This document shows positions 54,820 through 64,000 of a stretch of DNA of 64,000 nucleotides, in pieces. Below the pieces are notes generated by a model, which was given only the letters and a program-made list of their open reading frames with translations, had not been told where the DNA came from and did not search any database. This DNA comes from Hyphomicrobiales bacterium (lineage in GTDB: Bacteria > Pseudomonadota > Alphaproteobacteria > Rhizobiales > CAJQND01): positions 1 through 64,000 of the forward strand of contig JANQOW010000153.1 in NCBI GenBank assembly GCA_028285595.1, in the 5' to 3' direction. The position numbers and the translations under genes were made by a program. How positions within the stretch are numbered: the stretch's first letter is position 1; each line of letters opens with the position of its first letter.

Positions 54820-55518
54820 TCATTGATAGCTTGCGTCAGGCTGTCCGGTCGGTGCGAGCCGGTATCCGAGATACCTTTTCGCATCAATCGGATCATAGCC
54901 CAGCTGATTACGGAGTTTCTTTCTGAGCTTGCTCGTGTGGGCTTCGATCACGCATTCATCAATCTTATCGTCAAACAAGCCATAGACTGCATCGAACAAT
55001 TGTTTCTTGGTGATGCGGCGGCCCTGGTTCTTAGCAAGATGTTCTAAGATGCGCTGTTCGCGCCGGGGGAGCGGCAGTTCGACGCCCTTCACCACCGGAG
55101 AGCGGCCGTCAAAATAGACTATTAAATCACGGTGGAGTTCTTCAGGATCTTCGGCCGCCAGGCTGCGGCGAACCACTGCTGCCACCCGCGCCAGAATCTC
55201 GCGCACATGTGCCGGTTTCCGAACGACGTCGTCAGCGCCGGCTGCAAACATATCCAATGTCTGTTCGAGACCACCTGTGTCATTCATGGCAATGACCGGC
55301 GCATTGGAGCGACCGCGAATCAGGTTAGGGAACTTTTGCCTGTGTTCAAATGTTCCTAATAAGAAGGCGTCCACGGCCTCGAGTTCTTCGCTTGGGACGG
55401 TCGTCACCCACCCCATAAAATCGTCCGGATCCAGTCCGATTGTTGACACACCTTCCTTCTTGAACCCAGCCGCATAGCCTTGTTTGACGATGTCACGTTC
55501 GTCGACCAATACAATCAT
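54820..55518 (-). CDS. ftcR: FtcR/Rem-type orphan OmpR-family flagellar regulator
   Basis: MIVLVDERDIVKQGYAAGFKKEGVSTIG; winged helix RREQRILEHLAKNQGRRITKKQLFDAVYG...AHTSKLRKKL; adjacent to flgE. Confidence 0.88.
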   Translation of the reverse strand: MIVLVDERDIVKQGYAAGFKKEGVSTIGLDPDDFMGWVTTVPSEELEAVDAFLLGTFEHRQKFPNLIRGRSNAPVIAMNDTGGLEQTLDMFAAGADDVVRKPAHVREILARVAAVVRRSLAAEDPEELHRDLIVYFDGRSPVVKGVELPLPRREQRILEHLAKNQGRRITKKQLFDAVYGLFDDKIDECVIEAHTSKLRKKLRNQLGYDPIDAKRYLGYRLAPTGQPDASYQ

Positions 55519-55635
55519 CGAGTAGCTCCCAGCAAATACCCACTTGGGTCGGCGAATAGGTCGCTCTACCCAAGGATGCAAATTACAACTTTAAGAAGAA
55601 CTCAACTTACTGAGCTAATTTAAATTGAGCAGCGG

Positions 55636-55861: not shown

Positions 55862-56203
55862 GTGTGGACACTGCGTGATCTCCAAAAGCCCATTTCAGAG
55901 ATCGCACCGTTCTTCGTTCTCTCCCGATACACGTATTACGATGTGTTTGGTATGGTTCTTGCGTGCGCCAATTTTCTTGATCCTCTCGTGCGGATTCTGC
56001 TGATGATTCTGTGGCGCAACCAAAAGATCGATAGATTGTCGAAACGCGAATTGGAATTCGCGCTCGAAGACGCAGTCTTAGAGATCGAGCGACTCGGTCG
56101 CGACACACAAGAGGAAGCCTCGTACAGAGGATACCTCTGGGGATTTGCCAGCGCGTCATTTCTTGCCTTGGCTGGGTTGATCCTCGTGGCCTTGATCACC
56201 TAG
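55862..56203 (+). CDS. Small two-TM membrane protein, unknown function
   Basis: GTG start; hydrophobic segments YDVFGMVLACANFLDPLVRILLMIL and FASASFLALAGLILVALIT. Confidence 0.6.
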   Translation: MWTLRDLQKPISEIAPFFVLSRYTYYDVFGMVLACANFLDPLVRILLMILWRNQKIDRLSKRELEFALEDAVLEIERLGRDTQEEASYRGYLWGFASASFLALAGLILVALIT

Positions 56204-56301
56204 TTCAGATCACCCCTCAGACTTTTATTTGGACGGCTTCGCACAACCTTCGGCTGGTACGGTGGCGGCAAACATGTCTGTCACCAGGAATTCAAACGAT
56301 C

Positions 56302-56850
56302 ATGAGCAAAGCCGACCCTGAAAAATCATCCGCATCAGCGAACAAGATGGCATCCATCCTGAGTCACCTGTCCATCGCGGTTCAGATTCTCAGCCTTATC
56401 TTGGTTTTGGTCTTGTTTGCCGGGGCACTCGACCTCGGAGTGGTAGATCTCCGGGCCACGATCTCGAGCTTTTCGATCATTATCCTGCCAATCTTTGCCG
56501 TTTTCGCACTGGTTGCCATTTTCAGCCAAATGAAGCTTGCAGCTCTTAAAGCTGCATCCGTTCATGCCAAAGGTGCAGAGACCGAGGCCCTGGTTAATGA
56601 GACCAAGGGTGTCGTCGAAAGCAAGATCCAGGAGTACCTGGGAACTGAACATGAACGCTTAAAAGCTGAACATGAAAAGATGAGCGAGTTTCTGAAAGAA
56701 CTGGAGAAGCAAGAACAGGAGCGACTTGTCCAAGAAGTGGAGGAGTTGAAGGCGGAGAACACGGAGCTGAAAGAGCGTCTCTCCATGAAGAACGTTCCGA
56801 TCAATGATGAACTGAGCGCGGTCGATGAATTGGCGCCAACCGGAACATAG
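56302..56850 (+). CDS. Membrane protein with C-terminal coiled coil
   Basis: Two TM segments, then EHERLKAEHEKMSEFLKELEKQEQERLVQEVEELKAENTELKERL. Confidence 0.7.
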   Translation: MSKADPEKSSASANKMASILSHLSIAVQILSLILVLVLFAGALDLGVVDLRATISSFSIIILPIFAVFALVAIFSQMKLAALKAASVHAKGAETEALVNETKGVVESKIQEYLGTEHERLKAEHEKMSEFLKELEKQEQERLVQEVEELKAENTELKERLSMKNVPINDELSAVDELAPTGT

Positions 56851-56999
56851 TTGATCGCCTTTCTGCAAGGCTTTGTCCACGTTGCCTATATTGTGCGACG
56901 GCAAGCGGAAAGTTTCGCGCAAGGCCAGGATGCTACTGCCCGAGTTTAGCAAGAGTGCATCTGTGCTTTGTTCATCCCTCGAAGAAAAGGGCCCGCATC

Positions 57000-57485
57000 A
57001 TGCCACATCACCATAATCGCCCCTTCAGACCTGGGCTTCATGGGGTCAGCGCTGATGATGGAAGACAGCGTTCAAATGCTCAAGTCGATGTTCTTGTCGC
57101 TGAGAACAATGAGACCAATAAGTTTTACGTTGAGAATGTTCTGAGCACCTTGGGGTTCACATTCAAGACGGTTGAAAACGGTGTCGCGGCTGTTGAGGCA
57201 TTTCGCAGTTGCCGGCCGAGAATCATTTTGATGGATATCGCAATGCCACTCAGCGATGGAGTGGAGGCCACCATCAATATCAGACGCTATGAAGAGCGTA
57301 ACGAATTGCACCCTGTGCCCATTATCGCGCTGTCGGCCAACGCAATTCCCGGATTGAGAGAGCGCTATCTGGCCGCCGGCATGAATGATAGCCTGCTCAA
57401 GCCCTACTCCATTGACCAGATCAGTAAGATACTAGATGAGTGGATCTTGCCTGCCTCGACATGCCGGGCATCCACCGGCGCTTAG
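57000..57485 (+). CDS. Stand-alone response regulator receiver
   Basis: VLVAENNETN, IILMDIAMPLSDG, IIALSANAIPG, LLKPYS. Confidence 0.92.
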   Translation: MPHHHNRPFRPGLHGVSADDGRQRSNAQVDVLVAENNETNKFYVENVLSTLGFTFKTVENGVAAVEAFRSCRPRIILMDIAMPLSDGVEATINIRRYEERNELHPVPIIALSANAIPGLRERYLAAGMNDSLLKPYSIDQISKILDEWILPASTCRASTGA

Positions 57486-57594
57486 GCGCAGTCCAACAGT
57501 GTTTGAGACGTGAACAGACGTTCGCCGGCGCCGTTCGCATCCAGTCCAATTTTGAGATAAATCTCGCCGCGCAATATCGCTGAGCTTGGCAGCC

Positions 57595-57771
57595 TTAAGA
57601 ACTTGAACGGAGCAAACTGGAAGCCTCGATGCGCGCCATGTCGAGCAAATAGGCCAGGAACTGATGACCCTCAATTGTTGCCTTGGCCTGCAGTCGTTCC
57701 ACATCGCTTACCAGCTCACGTAGATCCTGTGTGTCGTGTTGAGCAGTAGGAGTAAGCTTCTCAGCCTTCAT
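57595..57771 (-). CDS. Small hypothetical protein (58 aa)
   Basis: MKAEKLTPTAQHDTQDLRELVSDVERLQAKATIEGHQFLAYLLDMARIEASSLLRSSS; start overlaps upstream stop. Confidence 0.5.
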   Translation of the reverse strand: MKAEKLTPTAQHDTQDLRELVSDVERLQAKATIEGHQFLAYLLDMARIEASSLLRSSS

Positions 57772-57949
57772 TGTGATCCCCAATTCGAAGCGCCTCATTG
57801 CGCTGATTAAACAACCAGGTGGTAAGTCTCCGATCTTTTGCCCAGATCGAGCTGGTCAATCTGGCTAGACGGTCCAATCCTGGCTCCGTTGCCGATGCAA
57901 ACCACGCCGCCACTGAGTGCGATTCTCTATTTTCATCAAGCTGAATCAT
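57761..57949 (-). CDS. Small hypothetical protein (62 aa)
   Basis: MIQLDENRESHSVAAWFASATEPGLDRLARLTSSIWAKDRRLTTWLFNQRNEALRIGDHNEG. Confidence 0.45.
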   Translation of the reverse strand: MIQLDENRESHSVAAWFASATEPGLDRLARLTSSIWAKDRRLTTWLFNQRNEALRIGDHNEG

Positions 57950-58219
57950 AGACGCGTGATTCTCAACCCTTAAGTGTTTTCATCGTAACGGCCCAATCTT
58001 GCATGAGGCTTGCCCCTCATTTCACCAAAGACTATTCATATTGAAAATTCAATGATTTAGGTAACAGGACGCCATCCTCTCGACCTGACGTAGCGGCACT
58101 TTTTTCCTCTGTCTTCTATCCGTGAAATAACACTCATCAGATCAGTCTCACGCAAGCTACTGCTGGCAAAACCTAAAGACCGGTGGCGGAGACCTTCCCC
58201 CAGTGTTCGCCGTCACCGC

Positions 58220-58263
58220 AAAAAGGCGGGACAGCGGTAATCGCACTTGCTGGCTGTCCCGCC
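58220..58263 (-). terminator. Rho-independent terminator candidate (minus strand)
   Basis: On minus: ggcgggacagc-17 nt loop-gctgtcccgcc-ttttt, perfect 11-bp stem. Confidence 0.6.
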
Positions 58264-58545
58264 GCCTTTAGCCGGACGGCCCTTAACAGAGGTAGCGCCC
58301 AAACAGCGCGCACCAGCTTCATTTTCATGTTGATAATAAACGAACGCTAAACGAACTTCAGCCACGCTGTGGAGAGGTTCAGGTCAGGTTCGCGCAAGTT
58401 GCCTCTGCCAGTGTACTGCTTGTTGTGCTGTTACACTGCTCTTTATCAGCTCAACGCTATGCAAAACGCAACTGGCGAGACACGCTCTCGATCCCCCAAG
58501 TGTCTCGCCGGTTGCATCTTCTCAAATGTATCAAGGACAAATCAC

Positions 58546-58854
58546 TCACCTGGTCGCGAACCTGAACCCCGTTGCCTTGTGGCAGACCAATACACCATTG
58601 GTGAAGTTGCAAAACGCATCCTTCAACATGAACATATTCGATTTTGTATATTGGCTTTGCGTGACGACAGCGTCGGGTTGTTGCTGAGCCAATTGCGAGG
58701 AATGTTCAGACGCCTGCACATCGTCTAGCCAGTGCTCCGTGATGAGGAGCAACATCAGGCCATAAGTGAAGAGCAGCCCGACCAAACACACCATTGCTGG
58801 GAAGTTCAAAGTTCGAATGTCACATGAAGCCCGGCTAACCACGATTGATACCAC
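58546..58854 (-). CDS. Possible small single-TM protein
   Basis: ORF with one TM segment (FPAMVCLVGLLFTYGLMLLLI); GTG start; no recognised homology. Confidence 0.3.
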   Translation of the reverse strand: MVSIVVSRASCDIRTLNFPAMVCLVGLLFTYGLMLLLITEHWLDDVQASEHSSQLAQQQPDAVVTQSQYTKSNMFMLKDAFCNFTNGVLVCHKATGFRFATR

Positions 58855-58934
58855 CTTTAAAGATGATCACAGGCCTCTGTTCTGCCTGAGGCAACTTGCT
58901 CCAAGCTGATCAGATCAAGATGGTGAGGGTTACG

Positions 58935-59630
58935 TCAGTTTTTGTAGGTCTGCCAAAGTGCTGTTTCGCCCAAGCTGGTGATCAGTGCGTCGTGCGCCGC
59001 AATCTCTTTTTCGGTTAGCCTCGACGGAAGCGCCATAGGTCTGGGTTGTGCAGGTTTGTTTTCCCGCGTTTCTTGCGGATTGAGCTCCACAACCTCTTGC
59101 GTGATTGCGAGGTTTTGTTGCCGACCACCAATCAGTTCCAGATAGACCGAAGCCAAAAGTTCAGAATCGAGTAGCGCGCCATGTTTCGTACGGTTGGAGT
59201 TATCGACCCCATACCGTCGACAGAGTGCATCCAAACTGTTCGGCCCCATCGGGTGCTTCTTTCGGGCCAATGCGAGTGTATCCAAAACCTGTTCTTCTGG
59301 AATCAGTTCTCGGTTGTGGGTGATTAGTTCGTGGTTGATAAACGCCATATCAAACGGTGCGTTGTGAATCACCAACACACCATCTCCCACAAACTCACAA
59401 AACGCATCCACTATATCGTTGAAAACAGGGTGCTTCCGTAGAAACTCTTCCGATAGGCCGTGAACGTTGTAAGCCTCTTCCGGCATGCTTCGCTCAGGAT
59501 TGATATACTGATGGTAGGTGCGCCCGGTCGGCACATGGTTGATCAGTTCTACAGCACCGATTTCAACGATCCGATGACCCTCTTTTGGGCTGAGCCCCGT
59601 TGTCTCGGTATCCAAAACGATCTCGCGCAT
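58935..59630 (-). CDS. dnaQ: DNA polymerase III epsilon subunit
   Basis: REIVLDTETTGLSPKEGHRIVEIGAVEL; HNAPFDMAFINHEL. Confidence 0.97.
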   Translation of the reverse strand: MREIVLDTETTGLSPKEGHRIVEIGAVELINHVPTGRTYHQYINPERSMPEEAYNVHGLSEEFLRKHPVFNDIVDAFCEFVGDGVLVIHNAPFDMAFINHELITHNRELIPEEQVLDTLALARKKHPMGPNSLDALCRRYGVDNSNRTKHGALLDSELLASVYLELIGGRQQNLAITQEVVELNPQETRENKPAQPRPMALPSRLTEKEIAAHDALITSLGETALWQTYKN

Positions 59631-59638
59631 GGTCTGCC

Positions 59639-60247
59639 TTATGTGTTCATTCGCAGGGTTTCTACAATATCCACCACTTGTGCTTCGGCTGCAGCAAGCC
59701 CTTTAGAGCTGTCCACAATGAAGTCAGCCTTGGCCCTTTTTTCATGGTCAGGCACTTGCTTTTGCAAAATGGCCTCGAATTTCTCTTCAGTCATACCGGG
59801 GCGCTGAAGAGCACGTTCACGCTGAATTTCTTTCGGCGCCGACACAACAACAATCTTGTCAACCTGATCCTCCGCCTTCGTTTCAAAGAGCAAGGGGATA
59901 TCCAGGACGACAACCGTTTCACCACCATCCTGTGCCTGGTGAATAAACCTTTGTCGTTCGGACTGAACCAAGGGATGAACCAAATTTTCGAGAGCCTTTA
60001 AAGCCTTGGCGTCGTTCAGCACGAGTTGGCCAAGTTTGGTTCGGTTGACTGCACCATCCTCAATGGCGGATGGAAACAGCGAACCGACGCTCTCCACGGC
60101 CGCACCATTTCGCGCGTAGAGGTTATGAACGACTTCATCCGCATCGAAGACGGGGACGCCGAGGGACCTGAACATTCTTGCTGTTTCTGACTTACCCATG
60201 GCGATTGATCCAGTTAATCCGATGATGATCACGCTGGTCACTCCCAT
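59639..60247 (-). CDS. coaE: Dephospho-CoA kinase
   Basis: IIIGLTGSIAMGKSETARMFRSLGVPVFDADEVVH. Confidence 0.97.
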   Translation of the reverse strand: MGVTSVIIIGLTGSIAMGKSETARMFRSLGVPVFDADEVVHNLYARNGAAVESVGSLFPSAIEDGAVNRTKLGQLVLNDAKALKALENLVHPLVQSERQRFIHQAQDGGETVVVLDIPLLFETKAEDQVDKIVVVSAPKEIQRERALQRPGMTEEKFEAILQKQVPDHEKRAKADFIVDSSKGLAAAEAQVVDIVETLRMNT

Positions 60248-60258
60248 TTCTTTAGCGG

Positions 60259-60870
60259 TTAAACGAGCGGCGGGTTCCTCGTGCGCAAAAAGGTCAGCAA
60301 AGGCAATAGGGGCAGACCGAGAATAGTAAAGTAGTCACCTTCAATCTTCTCAAACAGGTGAATGCCCAAACCCTCCAACTGGTATGCACCTACTGATTTC
60401 GTCACCTCATCACCCATTTCTGCCAAATACACACCCAAGAAAGATGAACTGACATCTCGCATCGATAGGCGCGCGACGTCTTCATAAGACCAAAGCGTTT
60501 CGCCTCTGCATACTACCGCGACGGCGGAGATAAGCTCATGGGTCTTACCACGAAGCTCGATGAGTTGATCCAGCGCCTTATCTTTTGTGGCTGGCTTACT
60601 GATGAGTTGGTCTTCAAGAACAAGGATCTGATCAGATCCGATGACTAAAGCGTCGGGGTGGCTTTCCGAGACCACGCTTGCTTTTGTTTGAGCGAGCAAT
60701 TGGGCAATGTCGGCAGGACGGAGTGTGCTGTCGTCACCACGCACGGCCTGCTTTATGGCGTCTTCATCCACATTGGCCGGCTCAGTGATAAACGTGAGGC
60801 CGGCCGCTTCTAAGAGCTGTTTGCGGATTTGGCTGGCTGAAGCCAAAACGAGCTGTTCGTGTTGCAGCAT
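60259..60870 (-). CDS. maf: Maf-like nucleotide pyrophosphatase
   Basis: LVLASASQIRKQLLEAAGL; VIGSDQIL; VGAYQLEGLGIHLFEKIEGDYFTILGLPLLPLLTFLR. Confidence 0.96.
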   Translation of the reverse strand: MLQHEQLVLASASQIRKQLLEAAGLTFITEPANVDEDAIKQAVRGDDSTLRPADIAQLLAQTKASVVSESHPDALVIGSDQILVLEDQLISKPATKDKALDQLIELRGKTHELISAVAVVCRGETLWSYEDVARLSMRDVSSSFLGVYLAEMGDEVTKSVGAYQLEGLGIHLFEKIEGDYFTILGLPLLPLLTFLRTRNPPLV

Positions 60871-61709
60871 TAGTGTTCTGGTTCGCTTTGTTGACGACGA
60901 TGATAGATATTCAATATGGCTGCAGCGGTCTCCTCAATCGATCGCCGTGTTACATCAATGACCGGCCAGTTGTGTCGGTGGCACAGCTTCCGTGCAAAGG
61001 CGATCTCTTCGGCAATCACAGTTTTGTCAACGTAGCTGGTCTCTCGATCCTCGTTGAGAGACAGCAAGCGGTTGCGCCTGATTTGTGAAATCCGTTCAGG
61101 ACTCGCGACCAACCCAACCACGACCGGCTTTGACAATTTCTCAAGCGTTTCTGGCAGAGGGACCTCTGGAACAAGCGGAACGTTCGCGGTCTTTAAACCG
61201 CGGTTGGCAAGATAAATACTGGTTGGCGTTTTTGACGTTCTGCTAATCCCAACGATAACCACATCCGCATTCTCCAGATCCTGGGTATGCTGGCCATCGT
61301 CATGCATGATGGTGTAATTCATCGCTTCAATTCGATGGAAGTACTCAGCATTCATCGCATGCTGACCACCAGCTCTCGGACGTGATTCTGCATTGAGATA
61401 GGACGCCAGGCTTGAGATGATGGGATCAAGAATGGAAATTGCCGGAACGTCCAATTGCCGACAGCTCTCCTCCAAGTCCTTGCGGAGCGCTTCATCGACA
61501 ATCGTGAACAGCACAATTCCAGGATTGGTCTCCACATTGCGCAAAACCCGTTGCAGTTGCCGCGCAGACCGCACCAATGCATACACATGCTCGATGGGTT
61601 GGAAGTCGGCATAGTGGGCCGTTGCGGCGCGTGCGACTGTGTTCAGAGTTTCCCCCGTTGCATCAGACACGAGATGCAAGTGGAAAAATTTTCTTTTCCC
61701 GCTGTTCAT
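60870..61709 (-). CDS. ppsR: Pyruvate,water/phosphate dikinase regulatory protein (kinase/phosphorylase)
   Basis: [44 protein letters not shown]. Confidence 0.97.
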
Positions 61710-61737
61710 TGTGGGCCGCTCACATCCTGTTGAGAGC

Positions 61738-62037
61738 TGTGGATAAATTCACACGATTTACACACCATCAACTGTGCCTGCAAAAAGCTGTGTGATTTTT
61801 CCATAGCCCAAAGCCGTTTGATCATTTTGTTCACAGATAGGGATAACCGCGTTTGCTGTGTACAATCAGCGGAGAAATTTTGCACTGGCTTGGATTAAAA
61901 CGATATGCTCCGGTTAAGCTATTGAATAGTATATATTATTTATCCCATCAATCCACTGGTTATCCTTGTGGGTAAGTCCATGATCTCGCCGACCCTGTGG
62001 ATAGGTTGTGCATTCTTGATAATCCCTATAATCCACA
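61738..62037. other. oriC: Probable chromosomal replication origin (oriC) region
   Basis: Perfect DnaA box tgtggataa (61738-61746); one-mismatch boxes tgtgggtaa (61967-61975), tgtggatag (61996-62004), taatccaca (62029-62037); AT-rich tract attgaatagtatatattatttatccc (61921-61945); next to hemE. Confidence 0.8.
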
Positions 62038-62120
62038 GTCCAACAACAACAGAATCCTTATTTCTATATTTGATAGATTGTTGGGGACTGGGATGACGAA
62101 TCACACAGGGTCGCACTGAG

Positions 62121-63173
62121 ATGCAAAAAAGACTGCTTTCGACACTCATAGATCACAAAGCAGATCGTCGTCCGGCATGGATGATGCGACAAGCCGGCAG
62201 GTATCTTCCTGAGTATCGAGAAGTCCGCGAACGGGCAGGCTCTTTTTTGGACCTTTGCTACGCGCCCGCCTTGGCAGAAGAGGTGACGCTGCAGCCTTTA
62301 CGCCGGTTCGACTTTGACGCTGCAATCGTTTTTGCAGATATCCTGCTGGTTCCCCATGCTCTCGGCCAAGACGTCTCATTCCAGGTTGGTGAAGGTCCCG
62401 TTCTGGAGCCCGTCTACGATGGCGCATCTGTTGCCGCGCTTTCGAGCGCGAAACTGGAGAGTCATCTTGCCCCGGTTTATGAAACCCTTGATCGGCTTTC
62501 CTCGAGCTTGCCTGATCATGTGGCTCTGATCGGATTTTGCGGTGCGCCATGGACGGTGGCCACTTACATGATTGAAGGCGGTACCTCCAAAGACCGGCGG
62601 GGAGCACGCCAGGCCGCTTGGGCAGCAATGAGCTCGAAGGACCATTGGTTCTCCAAGCTGATCGATTTGTTGGTGGAGAGCTCTGCGCAATATCTTTTGG
62701 GGCAGATCAAGGCAGGTGCTGAGGTGCTTCAGATATTTGAAACCTGGGCGGTTGATCTGCCCCCGACATTGTTTCAGCGGTTCTGTGTCGAGCCGATTGC
62801 AGAGATTGTTCGTTTGGTACACGCGGAGCATCCAAACGTGCCGATCATCTGCTTTCCTAAAGGTGCAGGTCAGCTCGCAAACTCATTTTGCAATGGTGTT
62901 CAGTGTTCTGGCCTTGGATGCGATGCGTTCGTCAATCTTGGTGAGATTGAGCTGGATGCACGTCAGAGCGTTGTAACGCAAGGTAATCTTGATCCCATAT
63001 GCCTGTTACAGGGCGGCGAGATTTTGGATGTTGAGGTGCGCAAGATCGTGGATCAGACTGAGGTGGGTCATCATATCTTCAATCTTGGCCACGGAATCTT
63101 GCCGGAGACGCCTATTGAGCATGTACATCAGATGCTAAAAGCGCTTCGTGAAGCTGAAGGCAACGAGGACTAG
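62121..63173 (+). CDS. hemE: Uroporphyrinogen decarboxylase
   Basis: RRPAWMMRQAGRYLPEYREVRERAGSF. Confidence 0.98.
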   Translation: MQKRLLSTLIDHKADRRPAWMMRQAGRYLPEYREVRERAGSFLDLCYAPALAEEVTLQPLRRFDFDAAIVFADILLVPHALGQDVSFQVGEGPVLEPVYDGASVAALSSAKLESHLAPVYETLDRLSSSLPDHVALIGFCGAPWTVATYMIEGGTSKDRRGARQAAWAAMSSKDHWFSKLIDLLVESSAQYLLGQIKAGAEVLQIFETWAVDLPPTLFQRFCVEPIAEIVRLVHAEHPNVPIICFPKGAGQLANSFCNGVQCSGLGCDAFVNLGEIELDARQSVVTQGNLDPICLLQGGEILDVEVRKIVDQTEVGHHIFNLGHGILPETPIEHVHQMLKALREAEGNED

Positions 63174-63177
63174 GTCA

Positions 63178-63615
63178 GTGGCAGATCTGTATCTGTGGTT
63201 TAAGTGGCTCCATATTGTGTCCATCATCTCATGGATGGCAGCCTTGTTATATCTGCCGCGCTTGTACGTGTATCATGCCGAACATGGAGCTGATGCGCCT
63301 CAGGCGGAAACGTTCAAAGTCATGGAGCGGCGGCTTTACAAAGCGATTATGACGCCGGCCATGATTGCATCGTGGGTGTTCGGTGTTGCCCTCATTGCTG
63401 CTGTAAGAATTGACTTCTCATCGGATTATTGGTTCTGGGCGAAGCTGATTTTGGTCTTCGCGCTGACTGGGGTCCATGGGCATCTTGGAAAGATCCGGCG
63501 GCAATTCGAGCAAGATCAGATCCCACGATCTTCCCGCTACTTTCGGATCATCAACGAAGTGCCTACGGTAATCATGCTGGTTGCGGTGTTTCTGGTGGTG
63601 TTCAAACCATTTTGA
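63178..63615 (+). CDS. hemJ: HemJ-type protoporphyrinogen oxidase
   Basis: LYLWFKWLHIVSIISWMAALLYLPRLYVYHAEHG; GTG start at 63178. Confidence 0.93.
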   Translation: MADLYLWFKWLHIVSIISWMAALLYLPRLYVYHAEHGADAPQAETFKVMERRLYKAIMTPAMIASWVFGVALIAAVRIDFSSDYWFWAKLILVFALTGVHGHLGKIRRQFEQDQIPRSSRYFRIINEVPTVIMLVAVFLVVFKPF

Positions 63616-63860
63616 TGGGTATAACTGAGACTGCGACAACACGGCAGTTTGCGTTTGGAAGCGGAATTGTACTATACGAGCCTATCTTCCAATGATCGGT
63701 TGTGTCCCGTCCGTGGATAGTGAGATCGCCCATAGCACGGGCACACGTCATTCAACCGCCTTCCTTTGAGAACATTGTTTCAAGAGTGTCCGTTCCGCCT
63801 GGAACATCAACACAAAGAAACGCAGCTCTAGGTCCCATCTGAAAAGTCTGGATTTTGACT

Positions 63861-64000
63861 ATGACAGAAGTCAGCGAAGTACAGCAGATCAAACTCCATG
63901 ATCTAAAAAGCAAATCCCCTACTGACCTTCTGGTTCTGGCCGAAGCGTTAGAGGTCGAGAACGCAAGCACCATGCGCAAACAGGAGTTAATGTTTGCCAT
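63861..64000 (+). CDS. rho: Transcription termination factor Rho, N-terminal fragment (cut by window edge)
   Basis: MTEVSEVQQIKLHDLKSKSPTDLLVLAEALEVENASTMRKQELMFA matches the Rho N-terminal pattern; open to right edge. Confidence 0.9.
   Translation, partial: MTEVSEVQQIKLHDLKSKSPTDLLVLAEALEVENASTMRKQELMFA

Follow-up and report, generated by a model that had tools for sequence, protein, structure and literature searches.

A hemE-type chromosomal origin of replication predicted between ppsR and hemE in a Hyphomicrobiales draft genome, with a putative variant unwinding tract

The 411-bp gap between ppsR and hemE in the genome of a Hyphomicrobiales bacterium is, judged from its sequence, very probably a chromosomal oriC of the alphaproteobacterial hemE type. 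It lies in the window, by which we mean the whole 64,000-nucleotide stretch analysed (bases 1-64000 of the 83,665-bp contig C6), and the origin of replication would thereby be fixed for a draft genome of 5.96 Mb in 170 contigs. The original prediction had proposed an oriC here, and this reading has been backed by the flanking genes, the cluster of DnaA boxes, the AT-richness, a switch in GC skew, the proximity of parS and parAB, and the fact that both the locus and a sequence core are conserved throughout the class. The gap has also been found to run exactly between the limits predicted, with ppsR on the minus strand to its left and hemE on the plus strand to its right, and both genes have been confirmed by profile matches (Table 1). 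Location and parts are given by the sequence, and from them we infer where the duplex melts and that DnaA binds and replication starts here. Origins of this type are already known from Caulobacter, and the part worth following is the variant unwinding tract. With a GC content of 42.8%, compared to 54.3% in the window, the gap is richer in AT than average, and an Rfam search of positions 56000-64000 has returned zero matches.

Table 1. Coordinates of the predicted origin, its flanking genes and its parts (positions in the window)
Feature	Position	Strand	Evidence or remark
ppsR (COG1806/DUF299), left neighbour	60870..61709	-	NCBIfam PRK05339, E=5e-104
Predicted oriC intergenic region, 411 bp	61710..62120	.	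ppsR-hemE synteny in relatives
Perfect DnaA box TTATCCACA	61738..61746	-	near ppsR start
AT-rich tract	61914..61943	.	least stable 30-mer of the window; putative accessory or alternative melting site
DnaA box TTACCCACA	61967..61975	-	1 mismatch
DnaA box CTATCCACA	61996..62004	-	1 mismatch; inverted partner of right-hand box
Conserved core AATCCCTATAATCCACAGTCCAACAACAACAGAAT	62021..62055	+	motif fit over 69 order gaps
Right-hand DnaA box TAATCCACA	62029..62037	+	1 mismatch; adjoins probable unwinding element
Period-3 tract CAACAACAACAG (minus strand 3'-GTTGTTGTTGTC-5')	62041..62052	+	at DnaA-trio position
Probable duplex unwinding element, AT-rich	about 62041..62079	.	right of last box
GANTC site (possible CcrM site)	62052..62056	.	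inside unwinding zone
Second GANTC site	62098..62102	.	
hemE, right neighbour	62121..63173	+	TIGR01464, E=1.6e-111

The perfect DnaA box and the three one-mismatch boxes that had been predicted are all present, and the fifth site (61797-61805, TTTTCCATA) is weaker, with two mismatches. The gap holds four boxes with no more than one mismatch, against a chance mean of 0.18 per 411 bp. Not one of 5,001 simulated sequences (first-order Markov, equal composition and length) contains as many, although the 64-kb window as a whole has about the number of one-mismatch boxes expected by chance (12 against 8.5). A stronger cluster elsewhere, which would have spoken against the origin, has not appeared in the 0.54 Mb scanned (∼9% of the genome, comprising the surroundings of 20 of the 21 other perfect boxes and sampled sequence), where no other 411-bp stretch holds four boxes. 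The next-best cluster, at C35:57462, has three and lies among apparent cytochrome-oxidase subunit genes (open reading frames read), which is not a typical origin gap.

That the gap is a mere divergent promoter region, with boxes serving the transcriptional control of ppsR and hemE and with the origin elsewhere, would suit the divergence of the two genes, the distance of only 28 bp between one box and the ppsR start, and the additional role of Caulobacter DnaA as a transcription factor (PMC4468827), but we consider it very improbable in view of what surrounds the gap. The mean GC skew on C6 switches from -0.031 left of the gap to +0.081 right of it, the best changepoint is at 62,500 (permutation p<0.0005, contig-level skew), and the cumulative minimum falls at 60,517, so that at the contig level both lie near the gap, where a minimum had been expected; sampled 20-kb skews in the complete relatives G021 and G037 have been too weak for placing minima or origins. 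The draft genome further contains only two perfect parS sites (C6:68665 and 70675), which lie right of the gap at distances of 6.6 and 8.6 kb, one between mnmE and mnmG and the other within rsmG, and are followed by parA and parB at ∼71.1-73.1 kb of C6 (gene names from translations read). A parS site within ∼10 kb of ppsR has been found in seven of eight genomes tested, the own genome and six from other families, and the eighth (G001, 86% complete) has yielded no parS. The dnaA gene lies on another contig (G000:C87:38817-40208), and the 15.7 kb read around it hold one box with at most one mismatch and no cluster, which likewise argues against an origin away from the ppsR-hemE gap. This single box, a perfect one, occupies G000:C87:38764-38772, ∼45 bp past where the dnaA match ends.

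The hemE-type origin is also supported by the comparison with ∼130 relatives, whose loci are mostly the better-scoring search matches rather than a full census. A ppsR match is present in 129 of 150 genomes of the window's order and in 90 of 143 genomes of the class, and ppsR and hemE stand next to each other, in divergent orientation and with a similar gap between them, at 65 of 70 loci of the same order and 67 of 77 of other orders, the exceptions including contig ends. A motif fit places a conserved core in most gaps ∼50-180 bp upstream of hemE, with the layout AATCCC-n-(DnaA box ATYCAC)-GnC-tract and often an inverted DnaA box on the left, so that the parts at the hemE end are inverted DnaA boxes, AATCCC, the right-hand box, a period-3 tract and an AT-rich zone. 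When each gap is scored by leave-one-out, the core exceeds all 200 shuffles in 50 of 69 order gaps and in 50 of 62 gaps of other orders, and it reaches 34.3 bits in the window (shuffled maximum 16.5). The inverted partner box is present in 31 of 50 order gaps (5 when shuffled), and a box with no more than one mismatch, on the same strand as 61738-61746, occurs within the 60 bp beside ppsR in 26 of 69 (shuffled mean 0.3). The core is kept beside ppsR even where hemE is not adjacent, with leave-one-out significance at loci L028, L176 and L142 and more weakly at L019 and L135. Since it stays by ppsR at the former three, the core is not simply a hemE leader, and its persistence without hemE adds to the points against a mere promoter region. 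It is the core at the hemE end, not synteny alone, that marks this origin type across Alphaproteobacteria.

Some observations on individual loci may be recorded here. At L019, L028 and L176, hemE is gone from the origin side and the core is still found by ppsR, and the next gene read at L019 and L028 is hemJ-like. A search for related loci with PpsR as the query has returned only two short MAG contigs. At L007 and L008 (PIVM01000220.1 and PIVU01000419.1, titled as Gammaproteobacteria and Nitrospirae MAGs), PpsR is 76-77% identical to that of the window and the ppsR-hemE origin is of the alphaproteobacterial type, so the bins or titles look mislabelled.

Regarding the melting site, the AT-rich tract near 61915-61945 that had been predicted is real, but its assignment as the site of melting is probably wrong, as the conserved AT-rich zone lies right of the last box, at about 62041-62079. 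In 44 order gaps, an AT excess of +0.19 to +0.24 is located at +10 to +49 from the start of the right-hand box, a similar zone is seen in 54 gaps of other orders, and the second stability minimum of the window is the 30-mer starting at 62053. The right-hand box is placed relative to this zone in what we take to be the same orientation as R1 relative to its unwinding element in E. coli. GANTC sites follow the box in 26 of 35 order gaps (31% expected). It is conceivable that the origin is correctly located and melting nevertheless begins at 61915-61945, where the 30-mer at 61914 has the lowest stability of the window and the AT content of the order gaps rises slightly at 100-130 bp to the left of the right-hand box; we regard this as unlikely, because the tract is only weakly conserved across gaps, and the strong AT excess common to the order and to other orders sits to the right, beside the period-3 tract. 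That tract is itself pronounced: in the 18 nt after the box, the log-likelihood gain for period 3 amounts to 70.8 over 44 order gaps and 101.5 over 54 others, with shuffled maxima of 6.1 and 6.4 and values of 2.5 and 5.8 for control tracts. As a three-base periodicity is also a signature of coding, the tract might be assigned to a small conserved reading frame, a leader peptide of hemE, instead of the origin. This explanation has been rejected and retains hardly any credibility, as all three phases are about equally represented among the tract-to-hemE distances (15/15/14), and even the best frame is open in only a minority of gaps (21 of 44).

As a part of the origin, the period-3 tract resembles the B. 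subtilis BUS, where a period-3 tract and AT-rich zone come immediately after a DnaA box, and the window does contain a trinucleotide repeat directly adjoining its box. On the plus strand, the triplet is H-A-A/G in the window's order and H-A-C in other orders, and the strand presumed to be bound by DnaA, which we have assigned by analogy, would thus read 3'-TDT-5' (GTT in the window) or 3'-GDT-5'. In B. subtilis, by contrast, the trio is 3'-GAT-5' (CTA), with the guanine held by Arg202/Glu228 and the middle adenine by Asn187 (PMC10721633). By the published criterion, a BUS has at least three 3'-NAN-5' trios no more than 16 bp away from its DnaA box (PMC8287927). In the window, one run of three starts at exactly 16 bp, which is marginal; 9% of order gaps, compared to 15% of shuffled ones, contain such an arrangement, and canonical 3'-NAN-5' runs do not rise above shuffle in order gaps or in those of other orders. 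A plain BUS of the B. subtilis type is therefore not claimed here. The DnaA of the own genome carries Tyr, Lys and Glu at the positions of B. subtilis Asn187, Arg202 and Glu228 (numbered after the B. subtilis chain 8btg in the alignment), and in 50 aligned alphaproteobacterial DnaAs Tyr is found at 187 in 43, Lys at 202 in all 50 and Glu at 228 in all 50. In the window's order, DnaA mostly has Gln at 227 and Cys at 230 and is shorter by one residue directly behind the GK of the Walker-B loop.

A lineage-specific variant of the DnaA-trio in Alphaproteobacteria is plausible. Its more detailed form, in which the outer bases are kept and the middle adenine is not (3'-GDT-5', or 3'-TDT-5' and GTT in the window's order) and in which the tract has co-evolved with the DnaA pocket through a class-wide Asn187 to Tyr exchange and the order-specific changes at 227 and 230 with the one-residue deletion, is put forward tentatively, with somewhat less than even confidence. 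The correlation of tract and pocket fits such a variant; it runs between clades, and consequently few independent events stand behind it. If this reading is true, the Bacillus DnaA-trio rule would be one of several codes, each read by a co-evolving DnaA pocket. A partial literature search has revealed no paper describing the variant tract. The DnaAs of the window's order (L039, L248-L276) score ∼50-110 bits below most other alphaproteobacterial DnaAs on TIGR00362, and they show the one-residue deletion after the Walker-B 'QFLxGK' loop together with a change of the type EEFF to QEFC.

In the mechanism that we propose for the predicted origin, DnaA would bind the scattered boxes at 61738, 61967, 61996 and 62029, and an ATP-DnaA oligomer anchored on the inverted pair 61996/62029 would grow rightwards onto the strand 3'-GTTGTTGTTGTC-5' and melt 62041-62079, where helicases could be loaded. 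After copying, ParB at the two parS sites on the right (6.6 and 8.6 kb away) would segregate the new origins.

Among known systems, the origin of Caulobacter, flanked by hemE and COG1806, has been proven experimentally (PMC1914354), and its parS is no more than 8 kb away from Cori (PMC4468827). The gap corresponds to the C. crescentus Cori in its flanking genes, similar size, DnaA boxes, AT-rich stretch and a parS within ∼9 kb (PMC1914354; PMC4468827), and differs in having a perfect consensus DnaA box, where Cori has weak G-boxes and W-boxes, and in lacking CtrA and IHF consensus sites. No CtrA site has been found in the gap even with the loose pattern TTWW-N7-TTWW (TTAA-N7-TTAA in Cori). As CtrA sites have not been observed in most other alphaproteobacterial origins (PMC4468827), such a site is not a required feature. 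For IHF, an auxiliary feature, the consensus WATCA-N5-WTR has no match in the gap, where the search covered consensus matches alone. The predicted origins of Rickettsia, Wolbachia, Ehrlichia and Anaplasma are similar in being intergenic on the side of hemE, in carrying DnaA boxes and in the criteria applied, but their gaps have IHF sites and mostly CtrA sites, and the Wolbachia gap is bounded on its other side by COG1253 instead of ppsR (PMC1914354). The T-rich strand TTGTTGTTG, with its overlapping TTGT motifs, is also reminiscent of the E. coli oriC unwinding element (TTGT/TTATT beside R1), in which TTGT motifs bind DnaA (PMC10316083). Unlike there, the motifs in the gap are in three-base phase, and neither 13-mers nor an IHF consensus site have been seen. 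Elsewhere in the window, positions 54820-55581 (minus strand) encode an OmpR-type response regulator that matches every curated subfamily weakly and that we presume to resemble the rhizobial flagellar regulator Rem.
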